The notes under the pieces are model-generated. The model searched no databases. It worked only from the letters and a program-made list of their open reading frames with translations, and was not told where the DNA came from. Shown here piece after piece: positions 12,073 through 32,149 of a stretch of DNA of 37,228 nt. Source of the DNA: Methanothrix sp. (lineage in GTDB: Archaea; Halobacteriota; Methanosarcinia; Methanotrichales; Methanotrichaceae); the NCBI GenBank assembly GCA_026394555.1, contig JAPKXZ010000038.1, forward strand, positions 1 through 37,228, read 5' to 3'. How positions within the stretch are numbered: the stretch's first letter is position 1; the number at the start of each line of letters is the position of its first letter. The position numbers were made by a program, and so were the translations under genes.

Positions 12073-12079
12073 TTTTCAA

Positions 12080-12113
12080 GGGCGGATTGGCTTTGCTCCG
12101 CCCCGCTCTTTTT
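12080..12113 (+). terminator. Terminator between convergent genes
   Basis: The inverted repeat GGGCGGA (12080-12086) and TCCGCCC (12097-12103) has a ten-base loop. It is followed by a T run at 12109-12113 that reaches the argB stop codon. It would end transcription of the SPFH/NfeD operon. Confidence 0.65.
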
Positions 12114-13952: not shown

Positions 13953-13959
13953 TTTGAGA

Positions 13960-15700
13960 TCACCCATTTGTCTCGGTAGCTATTCCTCTTCCAATAAAGG
14001 AGGCGTTGCCTATTCCGCCCTGGCCGTTAAAACCATGACCGCCCGTGCCCACTGCAACTCCCAGGCCTACGCCTCCTAAACTGGAATTCTCAGCCAACCC
14101 GTCTCCCTGAGCCGTAGCTATGCCATCCCCACCATCGACAAATCCATCGCCGCCCGTGCCTATGCCCGCCCCGAAGGCAATGCCGCCTAAAGTTACATTC
14201 TTGGCCCTGCTCAGACCATAACCTTCGCCCAAACCGGTCCCGCCGTTGCCGCCTGTTCCTTTGCCCCCCGTACCGATACCCAGGCCCAAGGAATACCCAT
14301 TGAAGGACTGGCCGCTGCCCAGGACCATGCCGGAATTGGTATTGTCCGGGGTGACGCTCTTTGCAGAATTCATAATGCTGTCGGCATCCGGATCGGGATT
14401 GGGAGTGCTGCTCACCGAGCCGGTGTATAGGCCTTTAGCCTGGCTTATTCCCTGGCCAATGCCAGTGCCCCAGCCGCCATTAAGTCCTTCGCCGCCACTT
14501 CCCACCGCCACACCAAGGCCAATGCCGCCCACAGTAGACCCTTCCGTCTCACCGTTGCCGTATGATTTGGCGGTACCGTCGCCACCCTGGCCGCTGCCGC
14601 TTGAGCCGCCGATTGCCACCGCGACCGATGCGCCTATGCCGCCTACATTGGCATTCTTGGATGTGCCGTTGCCGTAAGCGGTAGCCTCACCAGAGCCACC
14701 CCGGCCGGTCAGGCCGTCTCCGCCCAAACCTACTGCCACACCAAGACCGATGCCGCCCACTTTAGCCGTATCTACCTGGCCGGTTCCCTTGGCTATGGCT
14801 ATTCCCTTTCCTCCTTCGAGGCTTCCTTCGCCGCCCGTGCCTACGCCAACTCCAATGCCCAGACCGCCAAAGGTGGTGTTCTTGGCATTAGCTAGACCGT
14901 AACCTTCTCCTTGACCGGTACCACCGTTGCCAGCCGTGCCCTTTCCGCCCGTTCCAACACCAATGCCTACTGCATAGCCATTATAGGAAGAGCCGCTTCC
15001 TGCGCTGCTATTAGCTATATCGTTCGCAGAGTTGGTATTGCCGGCATCAGTATTCTTGCCCTGGGAAAGAAGGCTGTCTGTATCAGGAAGATCCGTCTTC
15101 TCATTTCCGGTTGCATCCTCACCAGTGAATAATCCCTCCGCTTTACTATCTGCCTGGGCTATGCCGGTGCCGTTGCCGCCGCTCTTTCCTTCTCCGCCGC
15201 TTCCTACAGCCACAGCAACCCCGATTCCACCGACAAATGATCCCTCTGATGTGCCATTTGCATAAGCCAACGCTTTGGCATCTCCGCCTTTGCCGGTGTC
15301 GCTTGATCCTCCAACTGCAACGGCCACCGCGCCGCCCATGCCTCCACCGTTCTCCACATCCTTGGAAGTGCCATTGCCATAAGCTGTCGCGTCTGCCGAT
15401 CCACCATTGCCGGCTGTTCCGTGGCCACCTACCGCTACGGCAACGCCTGCTCCAATGCCGCCTACTTTTCCATTCTCGGCAATGCCCGTGCCCTCACCAT
15501 AGGCTACAGCAAAGCCTCCTTCCAGGCCATCGCCGCCCGTGCCCACACCAACACCTGCACCAATACCACCTACGGTACTGTTCTTGGTCTCAGCCTGGCC
15601 ATATCCCTTGCCTATTCCTCTGCCGCCTACTCCGTCACTGGCTTCTCCGCCAATGCCTACTCCTACGCCCACTGCAAAGCCGCTGTAGGAGTCTTTTGAA
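13960..15700 (-). repeat. C-terminal super-repeats of the giant protein
   Basis: Three copies of a roughly 220-240-residue unit begin near 15690, 14960 and 14300. Each starts like NGYAVGIGVGTGGKG, runs through GIGKGYG or GEGYGL, and holds several Gly-Gly-(I/L)-Gly-x-G-V-(A/G)-V-G segments with spacers like YGNGTSK. The first two end with a Ser/Asn/Asp-rich linker (for example TDSLLSQGKNTDAGNTNSAN). The third is cut short by the stop codon. Confidence 0.8.
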
Positions 15701-18700
15701 TCGTTACCTGTTTTCAGGCCTGGATTAATGTCGCCTCCACTATTGTCCGCAGTCGAATCCCTCATTTGGCTGGCGGAATTGCCAAAGCCAGTCGTGTCGG
15801 GCATTGACGGCGTATCACTATTGCCCGAATCTGCGCCTTTTCCTTCACCCTTTCCGATTCCTTTGCCTATGCCTATGCCGTCGCCGGCATCGCCGCCAAT
15901 GCCGCTATCTCCGGAAACGCTGCCGTAGGCATCTAGTCCACCCTTACCTTTGCTGCCGCCGTCTCCTCCCACGCCAATGCCAAAGCCCACGCCAATAGCT
16001 CCCACATCCAGCTCCTTTGAGGTGCCTTCACCTACTGCCGTGCCATTGGCTTTTCCACCATTCCCACCGTTGCCGCCGCTCCCGGCCAGGCCGTTATTCA
16101 TTGTGCCCAGAGCTGCTGCTCCGCCGTCCCCGCCATTGCCGCCGCTCCCGGCAATGCCGATGGCAATGCCTATGCCCATGCCGCCAAAGCTGCCTCCACC
16201 TTCCGCCTTTCCTTTGGCATAGACATCGGCAATGCCGTCTCCTCCATTGCCCGCGTTTCCTGCATTTCCGCCATTTCCGCCGCTGCCGGCGCCGGCAAGA
16301 AGGCCACTTCCGCCACTACCGGATCCTGCTCCTCCGCCATTGCCTGCGTCTCCTCCGTCTCCACCTACACTTACTGCAACTCCCACTCCCACGCTGCCAA
16401 TTGTGTAGTTTTCAAGAATTTTTTTGAGAGGTCCATCTTTGAACAGGCTGACCATGCCGTCAGAGTTGGCAGTGCCGTTTGCATATCCGCCGTTGCCGCC
16501 GTTGCCACCCATGCCGCCATTGCCACCCTTTGCTAGGCCGCCCGCGTCAATGCCGTTTCCGCCGACCGCTGCTCCACCCTGTCCCGCATTAGCGCCCTTG
16601 CCGCCATTTCCACCAATGCTCACGCCCGCCGAGCCGCTTCCCGACTGGGCACCGCTGCCATCCTTGCTGATATCCAGGCCTGCGCCAACGGTAAGGCCTC
16701 CCTTAGCGTTGCCTCCATCTCCTCCGTCTCCACCTGGGCCGGCATATCCACCGACGGCATCTCCGCCCTTGGCCAAGGCCACCGTCTCCAAATTGTTCAG
16801 GGCAGTGCTGTTGTCAAGCGATACGCTTCCCAGCAGACTGGTGACGCCGGAAATAACATCGCCTTTGCTGCCGCTTCCGCCATTGGCAGATCCACCATTG
16901 CCTGCCAGGCCGCCATCGCCTCCGTTTCCGGCGACGGTAACTCCAAGGCCCACTCCAACGCCTGTACCTTCCTCTTTGATCTTAACGGACGCTGCCGCTC
17001 CAATATTGGCGCCGCCATCAGCATCTCCGCCATCGCCTCCCCGACCGCCATTGCCGCCCTGGCCGCCAGCCGCATCTCCGCCAGTCGATTTTCCGCCCAA
17101 GGCATCATTTCCTGAGGCGGTGGAGTTGATGAGCTCAACATCACCCTGCGGCGCATAAATGCCGCTGAAGCTGGAGAGTGTCGTGCTTTCTCCACCCAGG
17201 CCATTTCCGCCATTGCCGCCGCTGCCTCCCGAGCCACCGGCACCGGCAACTACAACGCCAACGCCAATGCCTACAGCAGTCCCGTTAGATTTCATGTTCG
17301 CAGTCAGGCCAGCACCAACATTTGTGCCGCCCTTAACATACCCACCAGAGCCGCCGGCACCGCTATTGCCACCACTACCGCCCTGGCCGCTTCCGCCATT
17401 GGCGTCGCCACTGATCGCAGAATTATGGCTAACACTTGAGTTGATCAAATGCGCCTTTCCATAAACGCCAGCTATTCCCTGGCCACCGATTGCCTCGCCA
17501 CCTGTGCCTTTTCCGCCATTGCCGCCGGAGCCGCCATTGCCACCTTTTCCACTGACAGTAACATCAACTCCGCCGCCCACGCCTACGTTGCCGCTTATGG
17601 CGGCGCCAATGTTGGAGCCTCCGAATGCCGAGCCACCAGCACCACCGCTGCCGCCATTTCCGCCATTGCCGCCGATACCTTCTCCGGCTAGAGCTGAGCC
17701 GCCCTGGCCATAGTTCGATTCGACCATGCTGTAGGTCATGTCTACGGCCCCATTCCGGCTTACGGCCCCCGCAGCGCCTTCGCCGGCATAAGCATTTCCA
17801 GCAGTGCCGCTGCCGCCAATGCCGCCATTGCCGCCCTGGCTACCCGAGCTGGCCACATTGACGCCCACGCTAAGGCCAACTCCGGCTTTATCGCCTATTG
17901 CGCCACTGATGATAGTATCGCCATGGATGTCGCTGCCGCTGCCTCCTTCTCCACCCTTGCCTCCGGTTCCGCCCATTCCCTTGCCACCAGTAGCTCTGCC
18001 GCCCCAGGCAGAGTTAGAGGTGATATTGCTCCCGGACAGGATAATATCGCCATCACGACTGTAGGCTCCGCTAAGGCCATCCTGGCCAAGGCCATCTCCC
18101 GCCAGGCCATCCGCGCCCGAACCGCCTGCTCCGCCAAAGCCGCCACTGCCACCGGTCTTTATTCCAATGCCGACAGCCACACCAACTTTCTCTCCTGCAC
18201 CAACACCAACCCTGACGCCTCCGCGAAGGTCGCCCGCATCTCCACCGTCGCCTCCAGAGCCGCCATTGCCGCCCGTGGCAAAGCCTCCTATTCCGTTTCC
18301 GCCCCAGGCATTGTTCTGCATAAGAGAGCTGTTGATTAGGGCAACATTGCCGCTCTGGCTGTAAATGCCGCTTGCAGCACTATTACCTTCGCCCTTTCCG
18401 CCCGTGGCCAGACCGCTTGCCCCTCCGGCTCCGCCCGAGCCTCCACTGCCGGCAACGCTGACGCCTACGTTCGCGCCGACTCCTACTTTTCCACCCAGAC
18501 CGACGGAGACCACAATCTCGCCGGTCACGTTGCCGCCTTCTCCGCCTTCTCCGCCATTTCCACCTGCGCCGCCATATGCATGTCCGCCAATGCCGTCTCC
18601 ACCCGTGGCAGAGTTCAACTGGATGCTGCTGTTGTCTGCATTTATGCTGCCGCTGGATGTGTAAATTCCGGCGAAGGCTTGGCTGCCAATGCCGCTGCCA

Positions 18701-21700
18701 GCAATGGCGCTGCCGCCCTGGCCGCCCAAGTTGCCGTCTCCTCCTTTGCCTGCGGTATTGACGCTGATGTCAGCGCCCACACCCACGGTGCCGCCGCCGC
18801 CCACAGGAACGCTCACTCCACCTTCAACAGTGCCGCCCCGCCCGCCAAGGCCGCCAACGCCGCCTGCACCGGCATTAGCGGATCCGCCCTTGCCGGCTCC
18901 GCCCGTGGCAGAGTTCTTCTCGATGCTGCTGTTATCGACAGTAATACTTGCGCCCTGGCTGTAGAGGCCGGCAAAAGAGCTGTACTTGCCGCTTAGCAGG
19001 GAATTGCTTACCGTGCCGTTGCCTCCCAAGGCGTCGCCTCCGAGGCCGCCAAAGCCGCCATTGCCGCCGTCTCCAGCTATATTGATGCCGACATGGGCAC
19101 CAATGCCTGCTGTTCCACCGATTCCAGTAGCTACGGTAACGGCTCCCTTAACAATGCCGCCTTCTCCTCCTGAGCCTCCAAAGCCGCCCCGGCCACCGGC
19201 AGCATCTCCACCCACGCCCTGTCCGGCCTGAGCGGTATTCTCATTGATATTGTAATTCTCAAGCGCTAGATTGTCTCCCTCATAGACCAATCCGCTCGTG
19301 GCAGATCCTCCTTTTCCGGATCCACCCCGGCCTTCGCCTGCAGAGCCGCCGTTGCCGCCATTGCCTCCGTCTTTTGCTACGTTGAAACCGACGTCCGCGC
19401 CTACTCCTGCCGTTCCTCCAACACCGGCTGCAACTGAGATGCCGCCATCGACGAGGCCTGCCTTGCCGCCTGCACCACCCTGGCCGCCGTTGCCGCCAAT
19501 TCCGCTGCCGCCTCTACCCTCGCCGGCAATAGCGCTATTTCCATTCACAGAGCCATTGGCCAGCTTGAGGTTGGAGCCCTGGAACAGTATTCCGCTGGTT
19601 GCATGACCTGCTGTGCCGATGCCTCCCGTTCCATCGTTGGCGCTGCCACCATCGCCTCCGTTTCCGCCTGCTCCTGCTACATTGACGCCGATCTTGGCAC
19701 CTACACCAACATCTCCTATACCGGCGTTGACGCTAATTCCGCCATCCGAGCCGCCACCTTTGCCGCCCTCTCCGCCAACTCCGCCCGAGCCGCCCGTGCC
19801 GTTGCCGCCAATACCGGCCCCGCCCATGCCTTTGCTATCTGATGCAATAAAGCCTGAAAGAACCAGATTATCGCCGGCAACCAGGATATGAGATATGCCG
19901 TCTCCGCCCAGGCCGCTGCCGCCTTTGCCCTCTCCGCCCAGGCCGCCGTTGCCGCCGTTGCCGCCATCTCCTGCCGTATTGACGCTTATGCTGGCTCCTA
20001 CTCCGACCTCGCCCGCGCCCAAAGCAACGGTGATGCCTCCATTTGCGCTTCCGCCATCTCCTGCAGCACCACCGGCACCTCCAGCACCGCCTGTGCCGGC
20101 ACCACCAATTCCGGCGCCGCCTTTTGCCACATTTCCGAAGGCCGGGCTGCTCTGTAGCTCGTCATTGAGGTATGAGCCGCTGATTGCTTTGCCGCCGCTG
20201 CCTGATCCACCAATTCCGTCGCCGCCATTTCCACCGTTACCGCCGTCTTTTCCTGATCTGGCTACGGTTACGGCCACGTTCGCACCTACACCAACCTCGC
20301 CCATTCCAGCGGCAACGTTGATGCCTGCCTCAGCGCTGCCGCCGTTGCCGCCCTGGCCGCCACTGCCGCCATTGCCGCCCTGGCCTGCTCCGCCGATGCC
20401 GCTGCCTGCCATGTCTGTATCATTGTTCATTATGGTGCCAGTCTCTGTCAGGCTGCCGGTGTAGCCATAGACGCCTCCTTTTGCGTCTCCGCCTTCACCG
20501 ATGCCACCTGTACCAAAGCTGCCTGACGCTCCCTGTCCACCGTCAGCGGCGCTGCCTGCGGTATTGGCTGCGATATTTGCACCCACCCCCACAAGCCCGG
20601 CGCCTGCTGATGCCAGGACCCCGCCGATGGCGTCTCCTCCTTTGCCGCCATTGCCTCCGCTGCCGCCGTCGCCACCCGAGCCGCGGCCGCCGCTGCCCTG
20701 GCCGCCTACGGCACGATTCTCAGAAATGCGGACTTGGTTCATAGTTAGATCGTTGTGATCGATGTACGCCCCGCTGCCCAGGGCTTTTCCGCCAGTGCCC
20801 TGGCCCCCAAGCCCATTAGTGCCTGCGACTCCATTGCCTGCCGATCCGGCCGAGCCTGCGACTGCAATGCCAATTGACGCGCCTACCCCTACTTCGCCTG
20901 CGCCTGCCGATACCGTGACGCCGCCTTCGACGTCACCGCCGTTGCCGCCGGACCCGCCCGAGCCGCCATTGCCGCCCTTGCCACTGCCTCCGCTGCCCCA
21001 GCCGCCAGTAGCAATGTTCCTGGTGAGATTGACCTGGGTCAGATCCAGCAAGCCCTTGCTGTAAACACCTGCACCCAGAGCGTCACCTGCGCTGCCGGCA
21101 CTTCCATATCCGGTTCCTGTGGAGCCGCCGTGGCCACCTGACCCACCGTCTCCTCCTGTATAAACGCCAATATTTCCGCCAACTCCTACCAGTCCGGCTC
21201 CAAAGGCCACATCCACGCCGCCATGGCTGGTTCCGCCATTGCCGCCCTTGCCGCCCAGGCCGCCATTGCCGCCAAAGCCGCTGCCGCCCTGGCCATTGCC
21301 GCCCGACAGATAATTGCCAGTGATCTCAGATTCGGTGATGCTAACTTCCGACTGGCCATAGATGCCCCCGCCCAGAGCATCCCCTGCCGATCCTTCTCCA
21401 CCATATCCGCTGCCTGCATAGTTGCCCTGACCGCCTGAGCCGCCCTGACCGGCTACGCCTGCTCCGATGTCGGCGCCAACTCCTACAACTCCACCACCTA
21501 CAGCTACATTGACGCCAGCATCGACATTGCCTCCCGCACCGCCACTACCGCCATTTCCGGCGTTTCCGCCCAGCCCTGATGCGCCAATTGCACTTCCGCC
21601 TGCAGCAGAATTACCAATAACATTGGACTCTTGCAGCTCTATCCTGGCCAGTCCTTGGATACCTCCGCCAAGAGCATTTCCTGAGGTAGCCATTCCGCCA

Positions 21701-24700
21701 TGCCCGTTGCCCGCAGTGCCGCCATAGCCGCCCGAGCCGCCATTGCCGGCAACATTGACAACCACATTTGCCCCAACGCCAACCACTCCGCCGCCTACGG
21801 GTATATTGACGCCTCCCCGGGCATCGCCACCGCTGCCGCCGGAGCCGCTGTTTCCACCATTGCCGCCCTGGCCAGTGCCGGCAATTGCGTCCCCGCTTAC
21901 CACATTATTTCTTAAAATGCGCGACTGCTGCAACACAGCATCCAGTCGGCTGAAAATGCCGCCCGCAGAGGCATCTGCCGTCGTGGCATATCCGCCATAT
22001 CCATAGGCACCATGGCCGCCGTTTCCTGCCAAGCCGCCATCTCCTCCGGTGTTGGCACCTACCGTCGCACCAACGCCAACAACTCCCCCTCCCAACGCAA
22101 TATTGACGCCATCAATGCCGCTGCCGCCCAGGCCCCCGTTTCCGCCGTCTCCTCCGTTGCCGCCTGTGCCATTTCCTCCCAGAGCGCCTCCGCCCAGAAC
22201 ATTGTTGTCAGTAACATTGGACCTGATCAGAGAGATCGTAGATTGAGTAGATATGCCGCCTGCGGATGCTTTTCCACCGGATCCTTTCCCAGCGCTGCCG
22301 ATTTCGCCATTGCTTCCTGATCCGCCAGCGCCACCATCGCCACCCATCTTAAATCCGATTTGGGCGCCTACACCCACGACTCCTGCTCCTGCTGCGATAT
22401 CGACTCCGCCCAGTGTGCTTCCGCCAGAGCCGCCATTGCCGCCTGCGCCGCCGTTGCCGCCCCGGCCATTGCCGCCGGAGCCATAGCCCGATTGAGCAGA
22501 ATTGCTAGCGATGATAGAATCTACAATGCTCAGAACGTCGCCGCTATAGATGCCGCCTGCCTGTGCATCTCCACCTAAACCATCAGCACCCCGGCCCGCT
22601 CCGCCTTTGCCGCCGCTGCCGCCCCGGTTCCCTTCGCCGGCGTTAAGAACGCTCACGCCTATGCCTGTGCCGACTCCGCCAGCTCCTATGGAAACGCTAA
22701 CTCCGCCAGTGCTATTGCCACCGGCGCCACCTTGTCCCGCCGGGCCGCCTTCGCCGCCAGTACCAGAGCCGCCTGTTCCGTTGCCGGCTTTAACAATATT
22801 ATCCAGTACATTTGATGAATTCAGAGTTATCTGGCCACTGCCGTTGATGCCGCCGCCGATTGCCGAGCCGCCGAAGCCTTCTTTGCCATAACCGCTGCCT
22901 GCCGCGCCTCCATTGCCTCCCGCGCCGCCGTCTCCAGCCGTATTAACGCCCACATTTGCGCCGACGCCCACGGCTCCTGCGCCCACTGTTACATCTACAC
23001 CATTGCTGGCATTTCCGCCGCTGCCGCCTGCGCCGCCCGCGCCGCCATTGCCTCCCTGGCCGCTGCCGCCAAGGCCGTTTCCACCAATAACGGAATTTCT
23101 CGATACATCTGCCCGGAGCAGGCTGATGTCGGACAGGCCGGCGATTCCTCCTGATGAGGCTGAGCCGCCGGTTCCCTGGCCGGCAAGGCCCTGAGCGCCG
23201 CTGCCACCGGCATTGCCCTGGCCGCCATCGCCTCCTTCCAGGACTCCAACATTGGCGCCAACGCCAACCGCGCCTATTCCTGCGGCAACATTTACACCGC
23301 CAGTGGAGGCGCCGCCTGTTCCACCGTTACCACCCAGACCACCGGCTCCACCCCGACCGTTTCCGCCGGTACCTGAGCCTGCCCGGACGAGGTTCTCCAG
23401 TATATCGAAATCAGATAGCTGGAGGCTTGTTGTGCTATAGATGCCGCCGCCTGTGGCATCTCCGCCCAATCCTTCTCCGCCTTCCCCAGATGCGCCGGAC
23501 CCAGCCGATCCGCCGCTTCCGCCATTTCCTGCAGAATTAACACCGATTCTTACGCTTGCACCTACGGTACCAGCGCCTCCAGTCACCGTGACGGTCCCGT
23601 TTGCAATTCCACCATCGCCGCTCTGGCCGCCCGAACCGCCGGAGCCGCCCTGGCCGGACCCACCTACGCCATCTCCGCCCAGCGCCGCATTATGGATGAT
23701 AACCGAGTTTTCAGCGCTCCCTAACAGGCCTTCGTTATAGATGCCGGCTCCCTTTGACTGGCCGCCCTTGCCGGCTCCACCGGTCGCAGACGCGCCCATT
23801 CCGCCTGCGCCGCCGTCGCCTCCGGAATTTGCCTCATTGATGCCAACATCGATTGCAGCACCGACAATGCCTGCAGCGCCGATGGTTACGTCAACGCTTC
23901 CTGTGCTACTGCCTCCCTGGCCGCCGTTGCCGCCATTGCCGCCGGAGCCTCCGACGGCGTCTCCACCAATTCCTGCTCCCGCCAGAGCAGAATTGCCGGA
24001 TACGCTGCTATTCTGCAGGGATATGGTCCCCTTATTGAATATTCCTCCACCAATGGCAGATCCACCCGTGCCGTTTCCGGCGCTGACCGATCCGCCATCG
24101 CCTCCGGCACCACCTTGACCGCCCGATCCTGCATCATTTTTGCTTACAGAGACCGCAACACTGGCGACGACTGCGAAGCTGTCACCGCTGGTAAAGCCAC
24201 CTTCAACATCGCCGCCATCTCCGCCCGTGCCACCCTGGCCGCCTTTGCCGGCAAGAGCGCTTCCGCCCTTTCCTAGGCCGCCGATTACAGAATTATCGAT
24301 GACGCGGCTGTCCTGCAAAGTGAGATCGGCATCGTTGTATATTCCGCCGCCTACTGCATCGCCTCCGGTAGCAGATCGTCCTACGGCATTGCCGCCGTTG
24401 CCGCCGGCGCCACCTGTTCCGCCGTCACCAGCATCTCTTGCTGCGGCTGCGAAGGACCCGCTGAATATCAGGCTGCCAGCTCCGCTGAAAGCATCACATG
24501 CTGCGCTTCCACCCTTACCGCCGGCACCTCCGGAACCTGCATCTCCGCCCTGTCCGCTTCCACCTACACTGTCGCCACCCATGACCCGGTTGCCGGAGAT
24601 GGTTACACCGCTCATCGTTACCGGTGCCAGATAGTAAGATAAGAACGACACATTAGAGACTGCCCCGTAAGAGCCAAATCCACCTATACCGTCTCCGCCG

Positions 24701-27700
24701 CTTCCGCCAATGCCACCGTTGCCGCCTGCGCCACCCTGACCAAGAGCTGCCGCGCCATCGATGCTAATCAAACCTATAGATCCAACCGTGACATCACTGG
24801 AGCCGCGACCGCCGTTGCCGCCTGCGCCACCCTGGCCGCCTGAGCCGCCCGTGCCATTGCCGCCGATACCTGAACCCGTACTGGCAACATTGCCCAGAAT
24901 CCGGCTATCGTCGATCGTAAGGTTGGTGGAGCTGGACAGGCTATCTTCCGAAGCATTTCCGCCTCGGCCGTTTCCTCCCTGACCAATGCCCCCGGCACCG
25001 CCAGCACCGCCCTGGCCGCCCGCGCCGCCTTTAGCTTCACCGACACCAACTGCAAATCCGGTGATGCTTTTCATATCAACCTTAGAGTACGCTTCGCCAC
25101 CCTGACCGCCTGCGCCGCCCTCGCCGGCCGCGCCGCCCCGGCCCGAGCCACCGATGCCGCTGCCACTCTCCGCAGAGTTCTCAGTCACTAGGGTATCCTG
25201 AACTGACAAATTACCACTGGAATACACGCCTGCGAAAGAGGCGCCGCCCTCGCCGTTTCCTCCATATCCATAGCCACCGGCACCTCCCAGGCCACCAATT
25301 CCGCCTGCGCCGCCCCGACCTTCGCCATAGCTGAAGCCGAAGAGGCTCAAAAAGCCATATTCGGAAATGCCCGCACCATATCCGCCTGCGCCGCCCTGGC
25401 CGCCAGCTCCGCCGTTGCCGCCAATACCATCTCCGCCTGCTCCTTCTCCCCCAATTGCAGAGTTATGAACGATCACGGAGTCATCTATGACCGTCTTGCC
25501 CAGAGAATAAGCGCCGCCGCCAATGGCATATCCACCAATGCCCTTGCCGCCATAGCCATTCGCACCCTGGCCGCCTGCGCCGCCGGCACCACCGTCGCCG
25601 CCTACGCCAATGCCGATTCCGACATTAACAATGCCAAGCACAGTGCCATCGGCAATAGCGTCCTCTCCTTGTAGAGCACTGTAGCCGTTGCTTCCCTGGC
25701 CGCCCACACCCTGGCCGCCCCGGCCGGCGCCGCCTCTGGCAGTATTGTTGGATACTTCCGTGCGGACTAGGGTCAGATCGCTTGCTGCATAGGCTCCGCC
25801 GCCCAGTGCCTGGCCACCGGTTCCGTTGCCGCCCCGGCCCTCTGCGCCGAGTACGCCATCTTTGCCGTTACGGCCGTCTCTACCTTTCTTGTAGACATCC
25901 TGGGTAGTAAGACTCCAGCCTACATCACCAGCCACACCATTTTCGCCTGCATTGACGCCATCGCCGCCATAACCGTTGCCGCCCCGGCCAACGCCACCTT
26001 CTGCCAGATTACCGGTTATGCTGCTATCAGTAAGAGTGAGTTTGCCTTCTGTATAAATGGCTCCGCCTTTGGCCTGGCCGCCCTGACCATAGCCGCCTAT
26101 GCCTGCTACACCCTGGCCGCCCTGACCGCCAGCGCCACCGTCGCCTCCGCCGTTGCCTACCGGCAGGAGGCTGGCACCACCATTGCCGCCATAGCCTCCG
26201 GCTCCGCCCTGACCGCTATTTCCACTGTTACTATTTCCTCCAATGCCGCCGCCGCCCCGCACAATGTTGTCAGCAACACGGAAATGACTCAGATCCAGAT
26301 CACCGTTATTGTAAATGCCGCCACCCAGGGCATCTCCGCCCACGCTCTGACCGGCATAACCAGTGCCTCCCAGGCCGCCCTGACCGCCCTGACCGCCCTG
26401 GCCACCATTTCCTCCCTTAATTATTCCAAATGTAGCGCCATCGCCGCCTCTGCCACCACTGCCGCCATTGCCGCCATCGCCACCAATGCCGCTTCCACCA
26501 ATTCCTTGGCCGCCTTCTGCGACATTGCCTGATAGTGTGCCGTTGGAAGGTGCAATGCTTCCTATAACATACAGGCCGCCACCGTAGCTCTTTCCGCCGG
26601 TGCCGTTGCCGCCATAGCCGTCTCCGCCATTGCCGCCATTGCCGCCATTTCCTCCCGGCCCGCCGTCTGCGCCGACCACGGCCGCCGAGCCGCCTTTACC
26701 GCCATCATCGCCATCTTGGGCTCCAGAGCCATCTATGCCCTTTCCTTCCCCACCCTGGCCGGTTCCACCCCGGGCCAGGTTATTGACGATGCTGCTATCG
26801 GCAAGAACCATAGTGCCATCACTGTAGACGCCGCCTCCCAGAGCATCGCCACCATAGCCTTCGCCACCATAGCCCTCGCCGCCCGGTGCGCCATTCAGAC
26901 CATTTGGACCCTTATTACCCTTCGAGCCCACAAAGAGCTTGCCGATCCATTGCAGCAAGCCCCATCCATCATTTCCTTGCTCACCGTGCGTTCCCTGAAT
27001 GCCAGCCCAACCACCGGTGCCATAGCCGCCGGTGCCCGTTCCTCCTACGGCCATGTTGCCGGATACCACGCTGGAATCAAGGTTAAGAGTCCCTTTGCTA
27101 TAGATGGCCCCGCCTGAGACGTCTCCGCCATAACCTTTGCCGCTGCTGCCGCTGCCGCCATCTCCGGCATCTCCTCCATCAGTTATGCCGGCTCCATCGC
27201 CGCCCCAGATGCCGCCGCCGCCCTTGCCGCCATCGCCGCCATGGCCGCCATCGCTGCCATTGCCGCCATAGCCGTTTTTGCCAAATCCATTGCCTGCTAT
27301 TGCTGCATTATCCTTTATACTGGAATAAGACAGGCCAGCATTGCCTTCACTGTAAATGCCGCCACCGGTTGAATTGCCGCCGAAGCCATCGCCGCCCTGG
27401 CCCAATCCACCTTGGCTGCCATGACCACCCAGGCCGCCCCAGCCACCGTCTTTGCCAACAATGGCTCCCCCGCCGTCGCCGCCTCTGCCACCAGCTCCAC
27501 CGGTTCCGCCCTTGGCGCCATAACCTATGCCGCCGGTACCGTTGCCGGCTCGAGCCAAATTGCTGGAAATATCGCTGCTTATCGCAGTGAGATCGCCCTT
27601 GCTATAGATGCCTCCGCCAATCGCTTCGCCGCCGTAACCATTGCCGCCGGTGCCTGAACCACCTGCACCACCCGCACCACCATCTCCGCCTTTGCCTCCT

Positions 27701-30540
27701 TTTCCAGCAGAAAATACGCTGTCTCCGCCTTCTCCGCCATTGCCTCCATAGCCTCCATTGCCGCCGACGGCGCCCCGGCCCATTCCGCCAATTCCGTTGC
27801 CGCCCAAAGCAAGATTATTGGTGACCTGGCTTTTTATCATGGCCACAATGCCTTCACTGTAAATGCCGCCGCCGTAAGCACTGCCGCCAGATCCATTGCC
27901 ACCGATGCCGTTTCCTCCAGTATCGCCGGCATTTCCGGCGCCACCCGACTTGCCGTTGCCTCCATGGAAGAAGCCAAATCCACCATTGCTTCCACTGCCA
28001 CCGTTGCCGCCGTTACCGCCCACCCCGCCCATACCGTTGCCGCCGGTGCCGTCGCCGCCCTGGGCCAGATTCATGTAAATAGCGGACTCGATCAAAGTCA
28101 ACCGGGAGTTGCTGTATATGCCGCCGCCAAAAGCATCTCCTCCAATGGCATCAAGCCCGGTTGCGGATGTGCCCTCAGTCGATGATCCAGAGGCATTACC
28201 ACCATCATTCCCGCTGCCGGCATCGGATGCAGTGAGTATTATTGGCAGATTGTTCGCACTGTTCGTGAAGTTGTAGAAATCCGCAGCCCAGTACGATGAG
28301 CCTGAGCTTGCCGAATAGCCCGCATCATAGGCGGCCTGATTGAAATCATTGCTTCCCCAATCGATCAAAGTTCCGTCTGAATTGTTGAAGAGAATACTAT
28401 TGGGGTTAGCCTTCTTATCAGACCGTCCGGCATTGTACCGGTCTATCTGATTCTGGACAAAGCCCATCTGATAACTTCGGGAATAAGTTTTATCATGATT
28501 GAAGTCTCCTGGGCTGTAACTATACCCAAATGGCCCGACGCTAAGGCTGAAGGTGACCTGATTAGAGGGATTATCTGAAGAATTACCAGAATTGGCATCG
28601 TTTCCGTCCTGGCCCGTCATATTTAATCCCACGGCATCGCCGCCGATGGCCTTATTGTTGAATATATTAGTTGCGATGAGCGTCAGGTTATTTTCATTAT
28701 AAATGCCGCCGCCATATGCGCTCCCGCCCTTGTTAGCATTGATCTTATCCAGACCTCTGGCAGTGCTTCCCGTGACATTTACGCCGATTAGGGTAAGATC
28801 GGCCTTGTTATAAATTGCGCCACCTCTTGCATCGCCGAAAAAGTCCGTAGGAGCTGTTCCATTCCATATCGTCATATAGGAAATGGTCACAACCTTTGAG
28901 GGATCGATCAAACCCACCTCAAAGACTCTGCCCTTATTCTCGCCATCAACAATGGTTTTGTCCGTGCCGTTGCCGATGATATGCAATGATTTATCGACCT
29001 TTACGTTCTCACGATACTCTCCCTCGAACACTCTGATGGTATCGAATCTCGTTGGATTTTCAGTCGTCGGATGGTCGAATGCCTCATCAACCGAGGACTG
29101 GATGCTCTCAGTTCCCACATCATCGTCGAGATAGAAGATCGTCCAGCGATCCGAATTGGCATGCAATGCATTGGTGGCCGCCCAGAGATGAGAGTCCACA
29201 CCAACGCTGTTGTAATTCAAATCAGAGTTAGAGGTCAGGCCATCACTGTAGGATCTCACCTCGCTGTTAATCATGCCCCTGGCCCGGATGTACTGATTCG
29301 TCTGTGTACCGGTGCTGTTCGAGTCCGCGGTCTGCAGTCCCTGCAATGTTGCAGGCTTGACATTATTTATGGAAACTGTGGTGTTGATGCGACTCTGTTC
29401 ACCTGGCCGCCACGCACTCACATTGGCACGGATGAGATCGGCACGGGCATAGAAATTATGATCAATTGTGGCATTGCTCATCGCCCTGGCCAAAATCTCG
29501 TTTGAGAACATGCCGTTAGTTATTGTCAGGCTTGAATCTGCCTTGTGAGAGTTTGCATCCTCGGAATGAGCGCCGTCCGTTCCCCACAGGACTTTTTCAG
29601 CCTTCAAGTTTTGGTATATTTCCGCTCCTTCATCGACATACAGATCCATTACGCCATCAAATTGGCCGCGGTCCATTATCAAGGCAGCAGCAACAGATGA
29701 CTTATTGCCGAGGCTATCCTGAACCTGACCGCTCTTTTTAGCGGTTAATACTTCGGTGGCGTTGAATTTGTGATAATCGGACACCCGACCATCCTCAACA
29801 TGCACCTGCAGAGTATTGTTGAAGTGGCCCTGGTCCATTGTAGCCGAAACGCTGGTGTTGGCCCGGTCACCCTCCTTGCTTAGACCGAGAGTGAGAGCTT
29901 GGCCGGAAGTTGCCAGCGTGGCACTGGTCCTCTGCCAGATAGCAGCGCTGCCGTCCGCCTCCAGTCCCATGATGGTATCAAACAGACCGCCGTTCATCTT
30001 CGTCTGCACGGTCGTCTGGGCCATGTTGCCGCTCTCGTCCTTCGCCCGTGCACCAGACGTGCCGCTAAGAGCGGATGAGGCATCCGCCTTGTGATAGATG
30101 CTGACATTCTCGTCTTTCGAGAGGACGCCCATGGTGTTGTTGAAGCGGCCCGAGTTCATGGTGGCAGTGACGCTGGTGTTGGCCCGATCCCCCTCGCTGC
30201 TGAGAGCCCGGGTGAGAGCCGAGCCGGACAACGCCACTGTGGCATTGGTCCTCTGCCAGATAGCAGCGCTGCCGTCTGCCTCCAGTCCCATGACGGTATC
30301 AAACAGACCGCCGTTCATCTTCGTCTGCACGGCCGTCTGGGCCAGGTTGCCGCTCTCGTCCTCGGCCCGAGCACCGGACGTGCCGCTAAGAGCGGATGAG
30401 GCATCCGCCTTGTGATAAATGCTGACATTCTCGTCTTTCGAGAGGACGCCCATGGTATTGTTGAAGCGGCCCGAGTTCATGGTGGCAGTGACGCTGGTGT
30501 TGGCCCGATCGCCCTGCCTCCAGTCCCATGACGGTATCAA
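13960..30540 (-). CDS. Giant glycine-rich beta-helix repeat surface protein (main open frame)
   Basis: An uninterrupted frame of 5,526 codons, the bulk of a secreted giant. Its first nine codons are read out of frame after an 83-bp deletion; the true reading starts near 30513. Order: 53-residue repeats (to about 29500), a pectin-lyase-like start (DTIRVFEGEYRENVKVDKSL near 29040), then about 42 segments of the type GGGIYSxGxLTLxxSxVxxN. These segments alternate with Gly-Gly-X tracts, and from about 25400 downward with V/G-rich inserts such as GVGANVGVNTAGDGG. Long repeats at the C-terminus end at NASFIGRGIATETNG, with no membrane anchor or sorting signal. It is nearly free of Cys. The beta-helix segments resemble polymorphic outer membrane/NosD repeats, and the Gly tracts resemble PE_PGRS or polyglycine-II helices. 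A role in sheath, adhesion or aggregation is inferred. An internal start is unlikely, so the present gene may be silent. Confidence 0.85.
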   Translation of the reverse strand: MIPSWDWRQGDRANTSVTATMNSGRFNNTMGVLSKDENVSIYHKADASSALSGTSGARAEDESGNLAQTAVQTKMNGGLFDTVMGLEADGSAAIWQRTNATVALSGSALTRALSSEGDRANTSVTATMNSGRFNNTMGVLSKDENVSIYHKADASSALSGTSGARAKDESGNMAQTTVQTKMNGGLFDTIMGLEADGSAAIWQRTSATLATSGQALTLGLSKEGDRANTSVSATMDQGHFNNTLQVHVEDGRVSDYHKFNATEVLTAKKSGQVQDSLGNKSSVAAALIMDRGQFDGVMDLYVDEGAEIYQNLKAEKVLWGTDGAHSEDANSHKADSSLTITNGMFSNEILARAMSNATIDHNFYARADLIRANVSAWRPGEQSRINTTVSINNVKPATLQGLQTADSNSTGTQTNQYIRARGMINSEVRSYSDGLTSNSDLNYNSVGVDSHLWAATNALHANSDRWTIFYLDDDVGTESIQSSVDEAFDHPTTENPTRFDTIRVFEGEYRENVKVDKSLHIIGNGTDKTIVDGENKGRVFEVGLIDPSKVVTISYMTIWNGTAPTDFFGDARGGAIYNKADLTLIGVNVTGSTARGLDKINANKGGSAYGGGIYNENNLTLIATNIFNNKAIGGDAVGLNMTGQDGNDANSGNSSDNPSNQVTFSLSVGPFGYSYSPGDFNHDKTYSRSYQMGFVQNQIDRYNAGRSDKKANPNSILFNNSDGTLIDWGSNDFNQAAYDAGYSASSGSSYWAADFYNFTNSANNLPIILTASDAGSGNDGGNASGSSTEGTSATGLDAIGGDAFGGGIYSNSRLTLIESAIYMNLAQGGDGTGGNGMGGVGGNGGNGGSGSNGGFGFFHGGNGKSGGAGNAGDTGGNGIGGNGSGGSAYGGGIYSEGIVAMIKSQVTNNLALGGNGIGGMGRGAVGGNGGYGGNGGEGGDSVFSAGKGGKGGDGGAGGAGGSGTGGNGYGGEAIGGGIYSKGDLTAISSDISSNLARAGNGTGGIGYGAKGGTGGAGGRGGDGGGAIVGKDGGWGGLGGHGSQGGLGQGGDGFGGNSTGGGIYSEGNAGLSYSSIKDNAAIAGNGFGKNGYGGNGSDGGHGGDGGKGGGGIWGGDGAGITDGGDAGDGGSGSSGKGYGGDVSGGAIYSKGTLNLDSSVVSGNMAVGGTGTGGYGTGGWAGIQGTHGEQGNDGWGLLQWIGKLFVGSKGNKGPNGLNGAPGGEGYGGEGYGGDALGGGVYSDGTMVLADSSIVNNLARGGTGQGGEGKGIDGSGAQDGDDGGKGGSAAVVGADGGPGGNGGNGGNGGDGYGGNGTGGKSYGGGLYVIGSIAPSNGTLSGNVAEGGQGIGGSGIGGDGGNGGSGGRGGDGATFGIIKGGNGGQGGQGGQGGLGGTGYAGQSVGGDALGGGIYNNGDLDLSHFRVADNIVRGGGGIGGNSNSGNSGQGGAGGYGGNGGASLLPVGNGGGDGGAGGQGGQGVAGIGGYGQGGQAKGGAIYTEGKLTLTDSSITGNLAEGGVGRGGNGYGGDGVNAGENGVAGDVGWSLTTQDVYKKGRDGRNGKDGVLGAEGRGGNGTGGQALGGGAYAASDLTLVRTEVSNNTARGGAGRGGQGVGGQGSNGYSALQGEDAIADGTVLGIVNVGIGIGVGGDGGAGGAGGQGANGYGGKGIGGYAIGGGAYSLGKTVIDDSVIVHNSAIGGEGAGGDGIGGNGGAGGQGGAGGYGAGISEYGFLSLFGFSYGEGRGGAGGIGGLGGAGGYGYGGNGEGGASFAGVYSSGNLSVQDTLVTENSAESGSGIGGSGRGGAAGEGGAGGQGGEAYSKVDMKSITGFAVGVGEAKGGAGGQGGAGGAGGIGQGGNGRGGNASEDSLSSSTNLTIDDSRILGNVASTGSGIGGNGTGGSGGQGGAGGNGGRGSSDVTVGSIGLISIDGAAALGQGGAGGNGGIGGSGGDGIGGFGSYGAVSNVSFLSYYLAPVTMSGVTISGNRVMGGDSVGGSGQGGDAGSGGAGGKGGSAACDAFSGAGSLIFSGSFAAAARDAGDGGTGGAGGNGGNAVGRSATGGDAVGGGIYNDADLTLQDSRVIDNSVIGGLGKGGSALAGKGGQGGTGGDGGDVEGGFTSGDSFAVVASVAVSVSKNDAGSGGQGGAGGDGGSVSAGNGTGGSAIGGGIFNKGTISLQNSSVSGNSALAGAGIGGDAVGGSGGNGGNGGQGGSSTGSVDVTIGAAGIVGAAIDVGINEANSGGDGGAGGMGASATGGAGKGGQSKGAGIYNEGLLGSAENSVIIHNAALGGDGVGGSGQGGSGGSGGQSGDGGIANGTVTVTGGAGTVGASVRIGVNSAGNGGSGGSAGSGASGEGGEGLGGDATGGGIYSTTSLQLSDFDILENLVRAGSGTGGNGRGGAGGLGGNGGTGGASTGGVNVAAGIGAVGVGANVGVLEGGDGGQGNAGGSGAQGLAGQGTGGSASSGGIAGLSDISLLRADVSRNSVIGGNGLGGSGQGGNGGAGGAGGSGGNASNGVDVTVGAGAVGVGANVGVNTAGDGGAGGNGGAAGSGYGKEGFGGSAIGGGINGSGQITLNSSNVLDNIVKAGNGTGGSGTGGEGGPAGQGGAGGNSTGGVSVSIGAGGVGTGIGVSVLNAGEGNRGGSGGKGGAGRGADGLGGDAQAGGIYSGDVLSIVDSIIASNSAQSGYGSGGNGRGGNGGAGGNGGSGGSTLGGVDIAAGAGVVGVGAQIGFKMGGDGGAGGSGSNGEIGSAGKGSGGKASAGGISTQSTISLIRSNVTDNNVLGGGALGGNGTGGNGGDGGNGGLGGSGIDGVNIALGGGVVGVGATVGANTGGDGGLAGNGGHGAYGYGGYATTADASAGGIFSRLDAVLQQSRILRNNVVSGDAIAGTGQGGNGGNSGSGGSGGDARGGVNIPVGGGVVGVGANVVVNVAGNGGSGGYGGTAGNGHGGMATSGNALGGGIQGLARIELQESNVIGNSAAGGSAIGASGLGGNAGNGGSGGAGGNVDAGVNVAVGGGVVGVGADIGAGVAGQGGSGGQGNYAGSGYGGEGSAGDALGGGIYGQSEVSITESEITGNYLSGGNGQGGSGFGGNGGLGGKGGNGGTSHGGVDVAFGAGLVGVGGNIGVYTGGDGGSGGHGGSTGTGYGSAGSAGDALGAGVYSKGLLDLTQVNLTRNIATGGWGSGGSGKGGNGGSGGSGGNGGDVEGGVTVSAGAGEVGVGASIGIAVAGSAGSAGNGVAGTNGLGGQGTGGKALGSGAYIDHNDLTMNQVRISENRAVGGQGSGGRGSGGDGGSGGNGGKGGDAIGGVLASAGAGLVGVGANIAANTAGSAADGGQGASGSFGTGGIGEGGDAKGGVYGYTGSLTETGTIMNNDTDMAGSGIGGAGQGGNGGSGGQGGNGGSAEAGINVAAGMGEVGVGANVAVTVARSGKDGGNGGNGGDGIGGSGSGGKAISGSYLNDELQSSPAFGNVAKGGAGIGGAGTGGAGGAGGAAGDGGSANGGITVALGAGEVGVGASISVNTAGDGGNGGNGGLGGEGKGGSGLGGDGISHILVAGDNLVLSGFIASDSKGMGGAGIGGNGTGGSGGVGGEGGKGGGSDGGISVNAGIGDVGVGAKIGVNVAGAGGNGGDGGSANDGTGGIGTAGHATSGILFQGSNLKLANGSVNGNSAIAGEGRGGSGIGGNGGQGGAGGKAGLVDGGISVAAGVGGTAGVGADVGFNVAKDGGNGGNGGSAGEGRGGSGKGGSATSGLVYEGDNLALENYNINENTAQAGQGVGGDAAGGRGGFGGSGGEGGIVKGAVTVATGIGGTAGIGAHVGINIAGDGGNGGFGGLGGDALGGNGTVSNSLLSGKYSSFAGLYSQGASITVDNSSIEKNSATGGAGKGGSANAGAGGVGGLGGRGGTVEGGVSVPVGGGGTVGVGADISVNTAGKGGDGNLGGQGGSAIAGSGIGSQAFAGIYTSSGSINADNSSIQLNSATGGDGIGGHAYGGAGGNGGEGGEGGNVTGEIVVSVGLGGKVGVGANVGVSVAGSGGSGGAGGASGLATGGKGEGNSAASGIYSQSGNVALINSSLMQNNAWGGNGIGGFATGGNGGSGGDGGDAGDLRGGVRVGVGAGEKVGVAVGIGIKTGGSGGFGGAGGSGADGLAGDGLGQDGLSGAYSRDGDIILSGSNITSNSAWGGRATGGKGMGGTGGKGGEGGSGSDIHGDTIISGAIGDKAGVGLSVGVNVASSGSQGGNGGIGGSGTAGNAYAGEGAAGAVSRNGAVDMTYSMVESNYGQGGSALAGEGIGGNGGNGGSGGAGGSAFGGSNIGAAISGNVGVGGGVDVTVSGKGGNGGSGGNGGKGTGGEAIGGQGIAGVYGKAHLINSSVSHNSAISGDANGGSGQGGSGGNSGAGGSGGYVKGGTNVGAGLTANMKSNGTAVGIGVGVVVAGAGGSGGSGGNGGNGLGGESTTLSSFSGIYAPQGDVELINSTASGNDALGGKSTGGDAAGGQGGNGGRGGDGGDADGGANIGAAASVKIKEEGTGVGVGLGVTVAGNGGDGGLAGNGGSANGGSGSKGDVISGVTSLLGSVSLDNSTALNNLETVALAKGGDAVGGYAGPGGDGGDGGNAKGGLTVGAGLDISKDGSGAQSGSGSAGVSIGGNGGKGANAGQGGAAVGGNGIDAGGLAKGGNGGMGGNGGNGGYANGTANSDGMVSLFKDGPLKKILENYTIGSVGVGVAVSVGGDGGDAGNGGGAGSGSGGSGLLAGAGSGGNGGNAGNAGNGGDGIADVYAKGKAEGGGSFGGMGIGIAIGIAGSGGNGGDGGAAALGTMNNGLAGSGGNGGNGGKANGTAVGEGTSKELDVGAIGVGFGIGVGGDGGSKGKGGLDAYGSVSGDSGIGGDAGDGIGIGKGIGKGEGKGADSGNSDTPSMPDTTGFGNSASQMRDSTADNSGGDINPGLKTGNDSKDSYSGFAVGVGVGIGGEASDGVGGRGIGKGYGQAETKNSTVGGIGAGVGVGTGGDGLEGGFAVAYGEGTGIAENGKVGGIGAGVAVAVGGHGTAGNGGSADATAYGNGTSKDVENGGGMGGAVAVAVGGSSDTGKGGDAKALAYANGTSEGSFVGGIGVAVAVGSGGEGKSGGNGTGIAQADSKAEGLFTGEDATGNEKTDLPDTDSLLSQGKNTDAGNTNSANDIANSSAGSGSSYNGYAVGIGVGTGGKGTAGNGGTGQGEGYGLANAKNTTFGGLGIGVGVGTGGEGSLEGGKGIAIAKGTGQVDTAKVGGIGLGVAVGLGGDGLTGRGGSGEATAYGNGTSKNANVGGIGASVAVAIGGSSGSGQGGDGTAKSYGNGETEGSTVGGIGLGVAVGSGGEGLNGGWGTGIGQGISQAKGLYTGSVSSTPNPDPDADSIMNSAKSVTPDNTNSGMVLGSGQSFNGYSLGLGIGTGGKGTGGNGGTGLGEGYGLSRAKNVTLGGIAFGAGIGTGGDGFVDGGDGIATAQGDGLAENSSLGGVGLGVAVGTGGHGFNGQGGIGNASFIGRGIATETNG
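16800..28840 (-). repeat. About 42 beta-helix plus Gly-Gly-X repeats of the giant protein
   Basis: Each unit has a beta-helix lead (AIGGGIYxxGxLxLxxSxVxxNxAxGG) and a Gly-rich tract (GGxGxGGxGGxGGxGG). I count about 42 leads. The first dozen units carry short or plain Gly tracts. Units from about 25400 to 17000 also carry an 18-25-residue hydrophobic insert rich in Val, Gly and Ala, of the form VxVGAGxVGVGAxVGVNxAG. Later leads lose the GGGIY core (for example AFAGIYTSSG, ATSGLVYEGD), so repeats drift toward the C-terminus. Confidence 0.85.
28230..28565 (-). other. Non-repetitive aromatic-rich island inside the giant protein
   Basis: Between the second and third beta-helix leads about 110 residues break the repeat. 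The sequence is rich in Tyr, Phe, Asn, Asp and Trp (VGPFGYSYSPGDFNHDKTYS, QNQIDRYNAG, IDWGSNDFNQAAYDAGYS, SSYWAADFYNFTNSAN). It is unlike the Gly-rich parts and could be a separate loop or small binding domain protruding from the helix. No family is recognised. Confidence 0.6.
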
Positions 30541-30737
30541 ACAGACCGCCGTTCATCTTCGTCTGCACGGCCGTCTGGGCCAGGTTGCCGCTCTCGTCCT
30601 CGGCCAGAGCACCAGACGTGCCGCTAAGAGCGGATGAGGCATCCGCCTTGTGATAGATGCTTACATTTTCCTTCGAGAGGACGCCCATGGTGTTGTTGAA
30701 GCGGCCCGAGTTCATGGTGGCAGTGACGCTGGTGTTG
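29851..30737 (-). repeat. Near-identical 321-bp tandem repeats
   Basis: The marker GCTGGTGTTG occurs at 29851, 30172, 30493 and 30728, giving spacings of 321, 321 and 235. The 321-bp unit codes 107 residues, made of two related halves (GDRANTSVTATMNSGRFNNT and LAQTAVQTKMNGGLFDTVMG). The 235-bp unit lacks 83 bases at 30515/30516 and three bases that remove one Asp codon near 30668. The near-identity at base level marks recent duplication and makes the stretch prone to recombination and misassembly. Confidence 0.9.
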
Positions 30738-31855
30738 GCCCGATCGCCCTCGCGATTGACGGCTCGGGTGAGAGCCAAGCCGGTTAATGCCTCTGTGGCA
30801 TTGGTCTTTTGCATGGCAAGAGCGCCTTTTCCATCGACCTTTGCAGCGAGATCAGAGGTAAAATTGCCATGATCCATTGAGGCTCTGGCATATGTCTTGG
30901 ATTTATTGCCGTTAAACTCCAGGGCAAGAGTTCCTGATGTTCCCAGAAGCGTGTTTGTGGCGCTAGAAAGCTGATAAGAAGCTGCACTATCGCTTGACTT
31001 GTTTACAAGTGCCCTCGAATTGCTGCTGAAATTGCCCAGATCCATCCTGGTATTGGTGTATGTGCGTGCCAGGTATCTATCATGGACCAGTGCATACGCA
31101 TATGAAGTCGCGGATAACGCTCGACCGGCATCTGCCTGATGCCAGATATCGAGACTATTATTGGCGACTGCAATCTGCCTTGAATTAAAGGTGCCATTGG
31201 ATAGGTCAACCAAAACTTTGCTATAGACCTTATCTCCTAATGCATTTTTTGCGTAAGATGATGATGATGATGCGCCCTGTGCGTCCCACACTTTAGAATT
31301 CTCATCTGCCACAGCCAGTTTATCTGCCCAGGCATTCTGTTCGGTGGTCATCTTTCCATCTGTCAATTCCACCAATACGCCTGCCTTATTTCCAGTGTAG
31401 CTGCTCGACGAAGAGCAGGCAATTGCCGCCAGGGCAGATAAGTTCGAGCTTTGCGAAGCCATGGCCATGATGTTATCCGGCGGGCTTGACACCCTTGCAA
31501 TTTGAGCTGTGGTCAGCTTGCCATCGTAAATCTCCACAAGGGTCTCTGCCTTGCTGCCCAAAGAATCAATTGCCTTTGATCCTACAATCGCTTTTCGGGC
31601 ATCCATGTCGGAATTAATTCCGACTGCCATGCCTCCATCAACATTAAGAAACTGATCCATATGAAGAGAACCGTATGAGAGCATGCCGTATTGCCTAACG
31701 GATTCAGAACCCCTACATGCACCAAGACAGAATTTTACAAGCTCGGCATTTGAGAAGGAGGCACTCTGGCTCACGCTCAAGGTATTGGGGGATAATGCTG
31801 CGCAACTTATCACCGCATTATTTGAGGCATTTTTAGAGAATAGAATAGCCACCAC
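30386..31855 (-). CDS. N-terminal repeat part of giant protein (second frame)
   Basis: This frame continues the giant protein upstream of the 83-bp deletion at 30515/30516. Bases 30386-30515 are an out-of-frame tail. It codes roughly seven repeats of 50-65 residues of the form ATxMDxGxFxSxxxAxxxxSxxxxxQxxxAxxALxGTSG (for example TYTNTRMDLGNFSSNSRALV, ARASMDHGNFTSDLAAKV). The same repeat begins the main open frame. The start shown is a GTG with no ribosome binding site or signal peptide, so it is not a true start. The real start is the fragment upstream, out of step by one base near 31840. Confidence 0.75.
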   Translation of the reverse strand: MVAILFSKNASNNAVISCAALSPNTLSVSQSASFSNAELVKFCLGACRGSESVRQYGMLSYGSLHMDQFLNVDGGMAVGINSDMDARKAIVGSKAIDSLGSKAETLVEIYDGKLTTAQIARVSSPPDNIMAMASQSSNLSALAAIACSSSSSYTGNKAGVLVELTDGKMTTEQNAWADKLAVADENSKVWDAQGASSSSSYAKNALGDKVYSKVLVDLSNGTFNSRQIAVANNSLDIWHQADAGRALSATSYAYALVHDRYLARTYTNTRMDLGNFSSNSRALVNKSSDSAASYQLSSATNTLLGTSGTLALEFNGNKSKTYARASMDHGNFTSDLAAKVDGKGALAMQKTNATEALTGLALTRAVNREGDRANTSVTATMNSGRFNNTMGVLSKENVSIYHKADASSALSGTSGALAEDESGNLAQTAVQTKMNGGLFDTVMGLEAGRSGQHQRHCHHELGPLQQYHGRPLERRECQHLSQGGCLIRS

Positions 31856-32120
31856 TTCCCTGGTATTTTTGCATCATACTTATGCTGCCGGGTCCCGAAA
31901 CCGTCCTTGAGCTGCTGATTGAGGCGGGAGAAAAGCCACCCGTCCCACTTTCATGAACGGAAACGCTATCGCTGACAATGTAGTAATCAGAAATTCCTAC
32001 GCTTCCGCTGCTATCAGAAACGGAGAAGCCCACGCCAATGGCAAAACTTGTAGGAATTATCGAAAGCTGTAGTATTAAAATTATAATAACACATTTATTT
32101 AAATTCCATCCGGGCAGCAT
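31833..32120 (-). CDS. Signal-peptide fragment of giant protein (first frame)
   Basis: This frame of 95 residues starts MLPGWNLNKCVIIILILQLS and continues IIPTSFA, a clear signal peptide with likely cleavage after SFA. A Ser/Gly/Val-rich region follows (IGVGFSVSDSSGSVGISDYY). It ends at a TAA just after KYQGSGGYSIL. Removing one base in the CTCTAAAAA stretch near 31835 would run it straight into KNASNNAVISCAALSPNT of the next fragment, so the two were one gene. ATG 32120 is preferred over ATG 32144 because a TATA box sits 26 bases upstream of it. Confidence 0.72.
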   Translation of the reverse strand: MLPGWNLNKCVIIILILQLSIIPTSFAIGVGFSVSDSSGSVGISDYYIVSDSVSVHESGTGGFSPASISSSRTVSGPGSISMMQKYQGSGGYSIL

Positions 32121-32143
32121 AATAGTATGTGTATTTCGCCACA

Positions 32144-32149
32144 TTTAAA
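32144..32149 (-). promoter_or_regulatory. TATA box of the giant gene
   Basis: On the minus strand TTTAAA sits 26 bases before the ATG at 32120, predicting a leaderless transcript. Further upstream, around 32300-32325, lies another AT-rich TATA-like stretch that could give a longer leader. Confidence 0.5.

Follow-up and report, generated by a model that had tools for sequence, protein, structure and literature searches.

The locus described here lies in a 37,228-nucleotide stretch of Methanothrix sp., family Methanotrichaceae (assembly GCA_026394555.1, contig JAPKXZ010000038.1; hereafter the window, meaning the whole of this stretch), and encodes on the minus strand a giant glycine-rich protein, followed directly downstream by a small exported protein, P0004 (Table 1). 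Most of the giant is contained in a single frame (P0001) that runs for 5,526 codons with no stop, corresponding to a product of ~500 kDa. This length is far beyond chance: when the region was shuffled 100 times under a first-order Markov model, the longest open run was 484 codons. Two further frames, of 489 codons (P0002, 30386-31855) and 103 codons (P0003, 31833-32144), are located upstream on the same strand. The three frames are pieces of one gene, since the homologue in genome G021 of the same genus, which is the closest to the signal-peptide end and is open for 899 codons up to its contig end, stays open across the first break and the repeats. An earlier note on this DNA, made from the sequence alone, had described a near-continuous coding stretch of 18 kb; the stop-free frame bears this out, while two frame breaks had been overlooked.

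Table 1. Features of the giant gene and of its partner gene in the window.
Feature	Position	Strand	Basis or remark
Start codon and signal peptide (P0003 residues 1-35)	32040..32144	minus	Sequence MWRN...IPTSFA, then IGVGF; homologues keep the signal peptide and an IxxFS start
N-domain, family-specific, ~190 residues, split by frame break 1	31499..32039	minus	Profile A6: 31836-32039 (2.6e-22) and 31499-31849 (1.5e-24)
Frame break 1	31826..31862	minus	~14 nt short of the G021 homologue, which is in frame here
53/107-residue repeats (end of P0002 and P0001 residues 1-330)	29551..31500	minus	Self-identity
Frame break 2	30500..30520	minus	~83 nt missing relative to the adjacent repeat unit
Main open frame P0001, 5,526 codons	13960..30540	minus	Open frame and shuffle comparison
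Beta-helix start: N-cap and first two rungs	28621..29136	minus	Homology to the L074/L029 beta-helix start; sub-threshold pectinesterase/NosD matches; fold prediction
Array of 42 units: one rung, Gly-Gly-X arm and, from about the 12th unit, Val/Gly tip	16555..28824	minus	Sequence, AlphaFold2
Gly-rich C-terminal region with a period near 230 and without a hydrophobic end anchor	13963..16554	minus	End conserved in L063 and L064
P0004, 310-residue exported protein, overlapping the stop codon of the giant	13035..13967	minus	Link to SH (sheath-forming) proteins by iterated profiles

The first break lies near 31840 and the second near 30510, inside a 107-residue repeat. Both are out of frame, neither resembles a homopolymer slip, and P0001 as it stands has no signal peptide; the window copy is either inactivated or mis-assembled. 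It is conceivable, at rather less than an even chance, that the locus is decaying or phase-switched in the lineage of the window, both deletions being real and the full-length product not being made, and the lengths of the deletions (~14 and ~83 nt), unlike those of homopolymer slips, speak for this. However, the 5,526 codons behind the breaks carry no stop, the ratio of nonsynonymous to synonymous substitution rates (dN/dS) against the homologue of genome G010 is 0.17, and the second break is situated where near-identical repeats make mis-assembly likely, in an assembly that is of metagenome type and consists of 75 contigs. Decay would in any case bear on the window copy alone, and not on the family.

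The anatomy of the protein follows in large part that proposed in the earlier note. The signal peptide is found at the far end of the coding stretch, in P0003; the 53/107-residue repeats were recovered as 61% identity at lag 107 (P0001 residues 1-330) with a weaker half-period at 53/54; and the beta-helix leads, estimated at about 42, number 42, including three extra ones within one 394-residue block. Each lead resembles GGGIYxxGxLxLxxSxIxxNxA. The Gly-Gly-X tracts that had been seen to alternate with the leads are present in all units from the third onward, and the Val/Gly inserts begin at about the 12th. The unit is not of constant length, as supposed earlier (95 residues), since most early units have 84-86 residues, those in mid-array 94-96 and later ones mostly 99-100. 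Self-identity maxima at lags 99, 198 and 297 hold at non-glycine positions too, and nine consecutive 99-residue units have in common the pattern GGGI.......L..S....N.V.GG.G.GGSG.GGNGG.GG.GG.GG...GGV.VA.GAG.VGVGA.VGV..AGDGG.GG.GG.GG.G.GG.G.GG.A. (non-glycine positions of the arms being a mixture of N/S/Q/E/K/A). Nor does the array-type design run to the end: the last ~860 residues form a different Gly-rich region. The second rung (window 28000-28700, P0001 ~640-790) carries a unique, aromatic-rich insert of ~150 residues without glycine repeats, possibly a separate module.

The locus is not decayed in all relatives. Stop-free giants of the same build occur in three other genera of the Methanotrichaceae, in genomes G031 (3,031 codons), G034 (2,377 codons) and G035 (at least 2,087 codons, open at the contig start), while within the genus the contigs of G010 and G024 end inside the giant, leaving its C-terminus. 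Over the comparable C-terminal stretch, dN/dS for the three pairs formed by the window, G010 and G024 was 0.17, 0.20 and 0.15, a pattern of substitution which shows purifying selection on this part. The assemblies of several relatives break within the giant gene (G010:C7, G024:C71, G036:C64 and G021:C422), and such genes are therefore probably under-reported in draft genomes. Between G034 and G035 the units run largely collinear and match in length. The window array resembles the others only as a class, and therefore probably grew within its own lineage. The armed unit was detected in 4 of the 393 genomes of the phylum, all four of them Methanotrichaceae, and the N-domain in 33 of the 50 family genomes and hardly beyond the family, so that judged by its distribution it is Methanotrichaceae-specific. 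A scan of genome contigs with alignment A5 yielded only Methanosaeta sp. PtaB.Bin039 (an earlier scan yielded none), the patterns being narrow and bacteria not fairly covered. The archaeal origin supposed in the earlier note agrees with an eIF2-gamma gene and with the same-family homologue in this genome.

Directly 3' of the giant lies the gene of P0004, which has an N-terminal hydrophobic signal (by inspection) and a length of 310 residues, within the definition of sheath-forming (SH) proteins by a signal peptide and 150-350 residues (PMC11576556). Homologues of P0004 are present in 41 of the 50 family genomes. Pairs in which a P0004-type gene immediately follows, on its 3' side, a giant or N-domain gene are present at 14 places, spread over 10 genomes and five genera (window, L029, L032, L063, L064, L065 twice, L066, L069 twice, L070, L073 and L096 twice), the two genes in most cases overlapping or separated by a few bases. 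In one of these loci (L065, G062:C100, 6598-17074), four N-domain genes stand in tandem, interspersed with and followed by P0004-type genes, three in all, of which the last has an internal TGA.

The relation of P0004 to the SH family was approached through genome G073, in which two adjacent secreted genes (702.9-704.7 kb) lie some genes ahead of an S-layer-like gene. From this position they can most likely be equated with Mthe_0667/0668, the main SH proteins of M. thermoacetophila (PMC11576556, PMC10470525). Relatives of one of the two occur in every one of the 50 family genomes, in most of them in several copies, as the published survey reports for SH proteins (PMC11576556). A first iterated search drifted in its late rounds into a membrane transporter, and the iteration was reseeded with the mature sequence. 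The search from the mature probable main SH protein recruited P0004 in round 3 with an E-value of 5.4e-8 (1,673 frames); a control seed recruited nothing in the iterated search. P0004 was reached via SH-type proteins with other extensions, and the sole co-recruit of that step itself contains an SH core. The comparison of P0004 with the SH profile by hhalign gave 68.7%, the SH profile being shallow. This co-recruit (L034, G011:C48, minus strand 6709-12417, 1,903 codons) combines NosD-like and plain GGGIY-type beta-helix rungs, immunoglobulin (Ig)-like stretches and an SH core (E 4e-33), and is a natural fusion of a beta-helix with a sheath core. These profile matches suggest a link of P0004 to the SH family.

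For the prediction of the fold, four units (residues 3057-3453) were modelled with AlphaFold2 from an alignment (A2) of nine other non-overlapping windows of the same protein. The best model had a mean predicted local distance difference test score (pLDDT) of 85.5 and a predicted template modelling score (pTM) of 0.73; the rung strands and both Gly-Gly-X arms lie mostly at pLDDT ~88-95, and the Val/Gly tip at ~55-70. The ordered beta-helix ladder with Gly-Gly-X arms suggested in the earlier note, rather than disorder with no regular beta-helix, is thus what the prediction returns. The arms are predicted to be ordered, with neither helix nor strand assigned, as expected for polyglycine-II or polyproline-II strands, and are probably polyglycine-II-like. 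A homologue with shorter arms (L074/L029, Methanosaeta sp. PtaB.Bin039) gave a model with mean pLDDT 70.4 (rungs mostly 75-93) and pTM 0.75, which matched the pectate lyase Pel9A (E 1.9e-3, probability 0.85), then a phage tailspike and other right-handed beta-helices and lyases. This likeness of the model to solved right-handed beta-helices is suggestive, not significant, falling short of a strict cut-off. The arms give the impression of having been inserted at one loop of an otherwise ordinary rung, because L029 has, besides rungs of 85-135+ residues, shorter-armed rungs of 36-46 residues and plain rungs of 24-27 residues at the end of the protein.

A beta-helix has a pitch of ~0.48 nm per rung. 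One unit of ~99 residues corresponds to one rung, and 42 units would therefore extend over ~20 nm, with the arms pointing sideways. The very long stiff fibre imagined in the earlier note is replaced by a predicted broad blade or comb of ~20 nm and ~42 layers, with most of its mass in the lateral arms.

We consider it an evenly balanced proposition that the giant glycine-armed beta-helix is exported together with the SH-related P0004 and displayed on the sheath. The first gene would encode the exported giant, composed of the signal peptide, the N-domain, the 53/107-residue repeats and a right-handed beta-helix, each rung of which would bear, at one fixed loop, a Gly-Gly-X hairpin arm tipped by Val/Gly beta structure; stacked, the arms of successive rungs might form the blade or comb. 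The overlapping second gene would encode the small exported SH-related protein, and the two products are probably co-expressed and co-exported. The giant shows no membrane anchor of its own, so that the N-domain or P0004 probably fastens it on or in the sheath, where it would serve as a surface-extending spacer or adhesive layer. The sheath link, a guess in the earlier note, has gained in substance from the P0004-type pairing, the iterated SH search and the G011 fusion. Several points weigh against display on the sheath. The pairing is not universal, the P0004-type genes at L095 and L097 being unpaired and the G034 giant having no adjoining P0004-type gene; the assignment of the SH seed to Mthe_0667/0668 rests on position, not on name; and, compared directly, P0004 and individual SH sequences match weakly. 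The window copy, with two out-of-frame deletions at its 5' end, may therefore be switched off. AlphaFold2 can be over-confident on repeats, and Foldseek with the armed four-unit model gave no significant match.

An unlikely, although not negligible, alternative is that the giant is an S-layer or cell-surface adhesin or spacer, unrelated to the sheath and anchored by its N-domain, and that the pairing with P0004 reflects shared export or regulation. The N-domain is indeed shared by numerous exported proteins of the family, among them one bearing a metallopeptidase-like motif, and both the solitary G034 giant and the dependence of the P0004-SH link on iterated profiles point the same way; recurrent adjacency at 14 places and the fusion of beta-helix and SH core in G011 argue against it and in favour of the sheath.

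The predicted arms might also be flexible low-complexity spacers, with only the rungs folding and the whole resembling a bottlebrush with floppy loops. The low-complexity composition, the failure of the armed model to find a significant Foldseek match and an alignment built from repeats of the same protein would all suit such a structure, which we nevertheless regard as improbable, as the pLDDT of the arms, at ~88-94, matches that of the rungs, the triplet glycine register and the unit length are kept to the residue across many units, and the succession of unit lengths is largely the same in G034 and G035. An ice-binding surface of the springtail antifreeze type is suggested by the top non-significant PDB match of the armed model (7jjv, a springtail polyproline-II bundle, followed by many beta-helices), and is very hard to credit given E 0.12 and probability 0.01, the mixed non-glycine positions of the arms and the lack of an obvious need for it in such methanogens.

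Returning to display on the sheath, a more specific version may be put forward tentatively, on a chance clearly short of even. The 4.8 A pitch of the beta-helix spine equals the packing distance of polyglycine-II strands, and a hairpin on each rung could build up a flat, layered blade of ~20 nm which, paired with a dedicated SH-type subunit, might be mounted on the sheath as an outer or spacer layer and thus constitute a second structural sheath component.

Against Pfam, NCBIfam and PHROGs, the scanned stretches of the giant gave sub-threshold pectinesterase/NosD matches at the beta-helix start, and otherwise matches at chance level only. In PDB searches by sequence there was no significant match for the units and none for the N-domain, and P0004 matched at chance level, profile A8 (positions 7-113) giving E 0.067 against CanX. 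No plasmid was found with the unit stretch, and no viral contig with P0004 or the units. With the surface proteins of the right-handed beta-helix type (polymorphic outer membrane proteins (POMP), NosD and PbH1) the giant shares the GG[AG]IY rung sequence and the predicted fold, but it has a glycine arm of 60-75 residues in every rung, is archaeal, and comes with its own N-domain and partner gene; the POMP repeat TIGR01376 was absent from the own genome at E <= 1e-3 and from the scanned stretches at E <= 0.1. Bacterial beta-helix proteins with glycine tracts between the rungs are a lead only. The PGRS domains of mycobacterial PE_PGRS proteins likewise consist of Gly-Gly-X triplets, which are predicted to pack into flat, sail-shaped layers (polyglycine-II sandwich, PMC9436101), but there the glycine strands are directly consecutive, whereas in the giant each strand pair forms an arm on a beta-helix rung. 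Nor was a PE domain found, the N-domain being Methanotrichaceae-specific and the scanned stretches giving no Pfam match, and no relation by descent is known. Springtail antifreeze proteins also have Gly-rich polyproline-II-type strands, but are small, lack a beta-helix and have no sequence relation to the giant.

Among archaeal SH proteins, which include Ig-like-extended forms (PMC11576556), P0004 would find its place by iterated profiles, and in the G011 protein an SH core and a plain beta-helix are united, but the giant itself shows no SH core. In the published survey the gene context of SH proteins was not conserved (PMC11576556), unlike the pair of giant and P0004, which recurs. MspA of Methanothrix thermoacetophila (Mthe_1069), proposed as a sheath component (PMC6242892, PMC10470525), is likewise exported and from the same archaeal family. 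The only N-domain match in that genome is a 682-codon frame at 1.27 Mb (L108, G073, 4138-6183, plus strand), an N-domain-like protein whose continuation has a metallopeptidase-like HELGH motif and repeats of YRMYGYGDHFYTT. This is not where MspA is expected, and the identity of the giant's family with MspA is not supported, MspA itself not having been located. Beta-helices, polyglycine-II bodies and SH proteins are each known separately; neither their combination nor the recurrent pairing of a giant or N-domain gene with a P0004-type gene was found in the literature searched.

Elsewhere in the window, on the plus strand, an IS605-type OrfB transposase gene is located near the locus (36044-36928), and a pair of SPFH/Band-7 and NfeD membrane genes at 8551-10789.

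Sheaths enclose the Methanotrichaceae, which are major acetate-consuming methane producers, and to our knowledge the accessory and surface proteins of these sheaths are essentially unknown. In the giants, one exported protein family is seen growing from fewer than 400 to more than 5,500 residues. If the predicted structure is true, the beta-helix and its stacked glycine strands would make up a natural material joining two lattices of equal pitch, of interest for structural biology and protein design. For the family itself, the recurrent pair of a giant or N-domain gene with a P0004-type gene offers concrete gene candidates for sheath accessory proteins.

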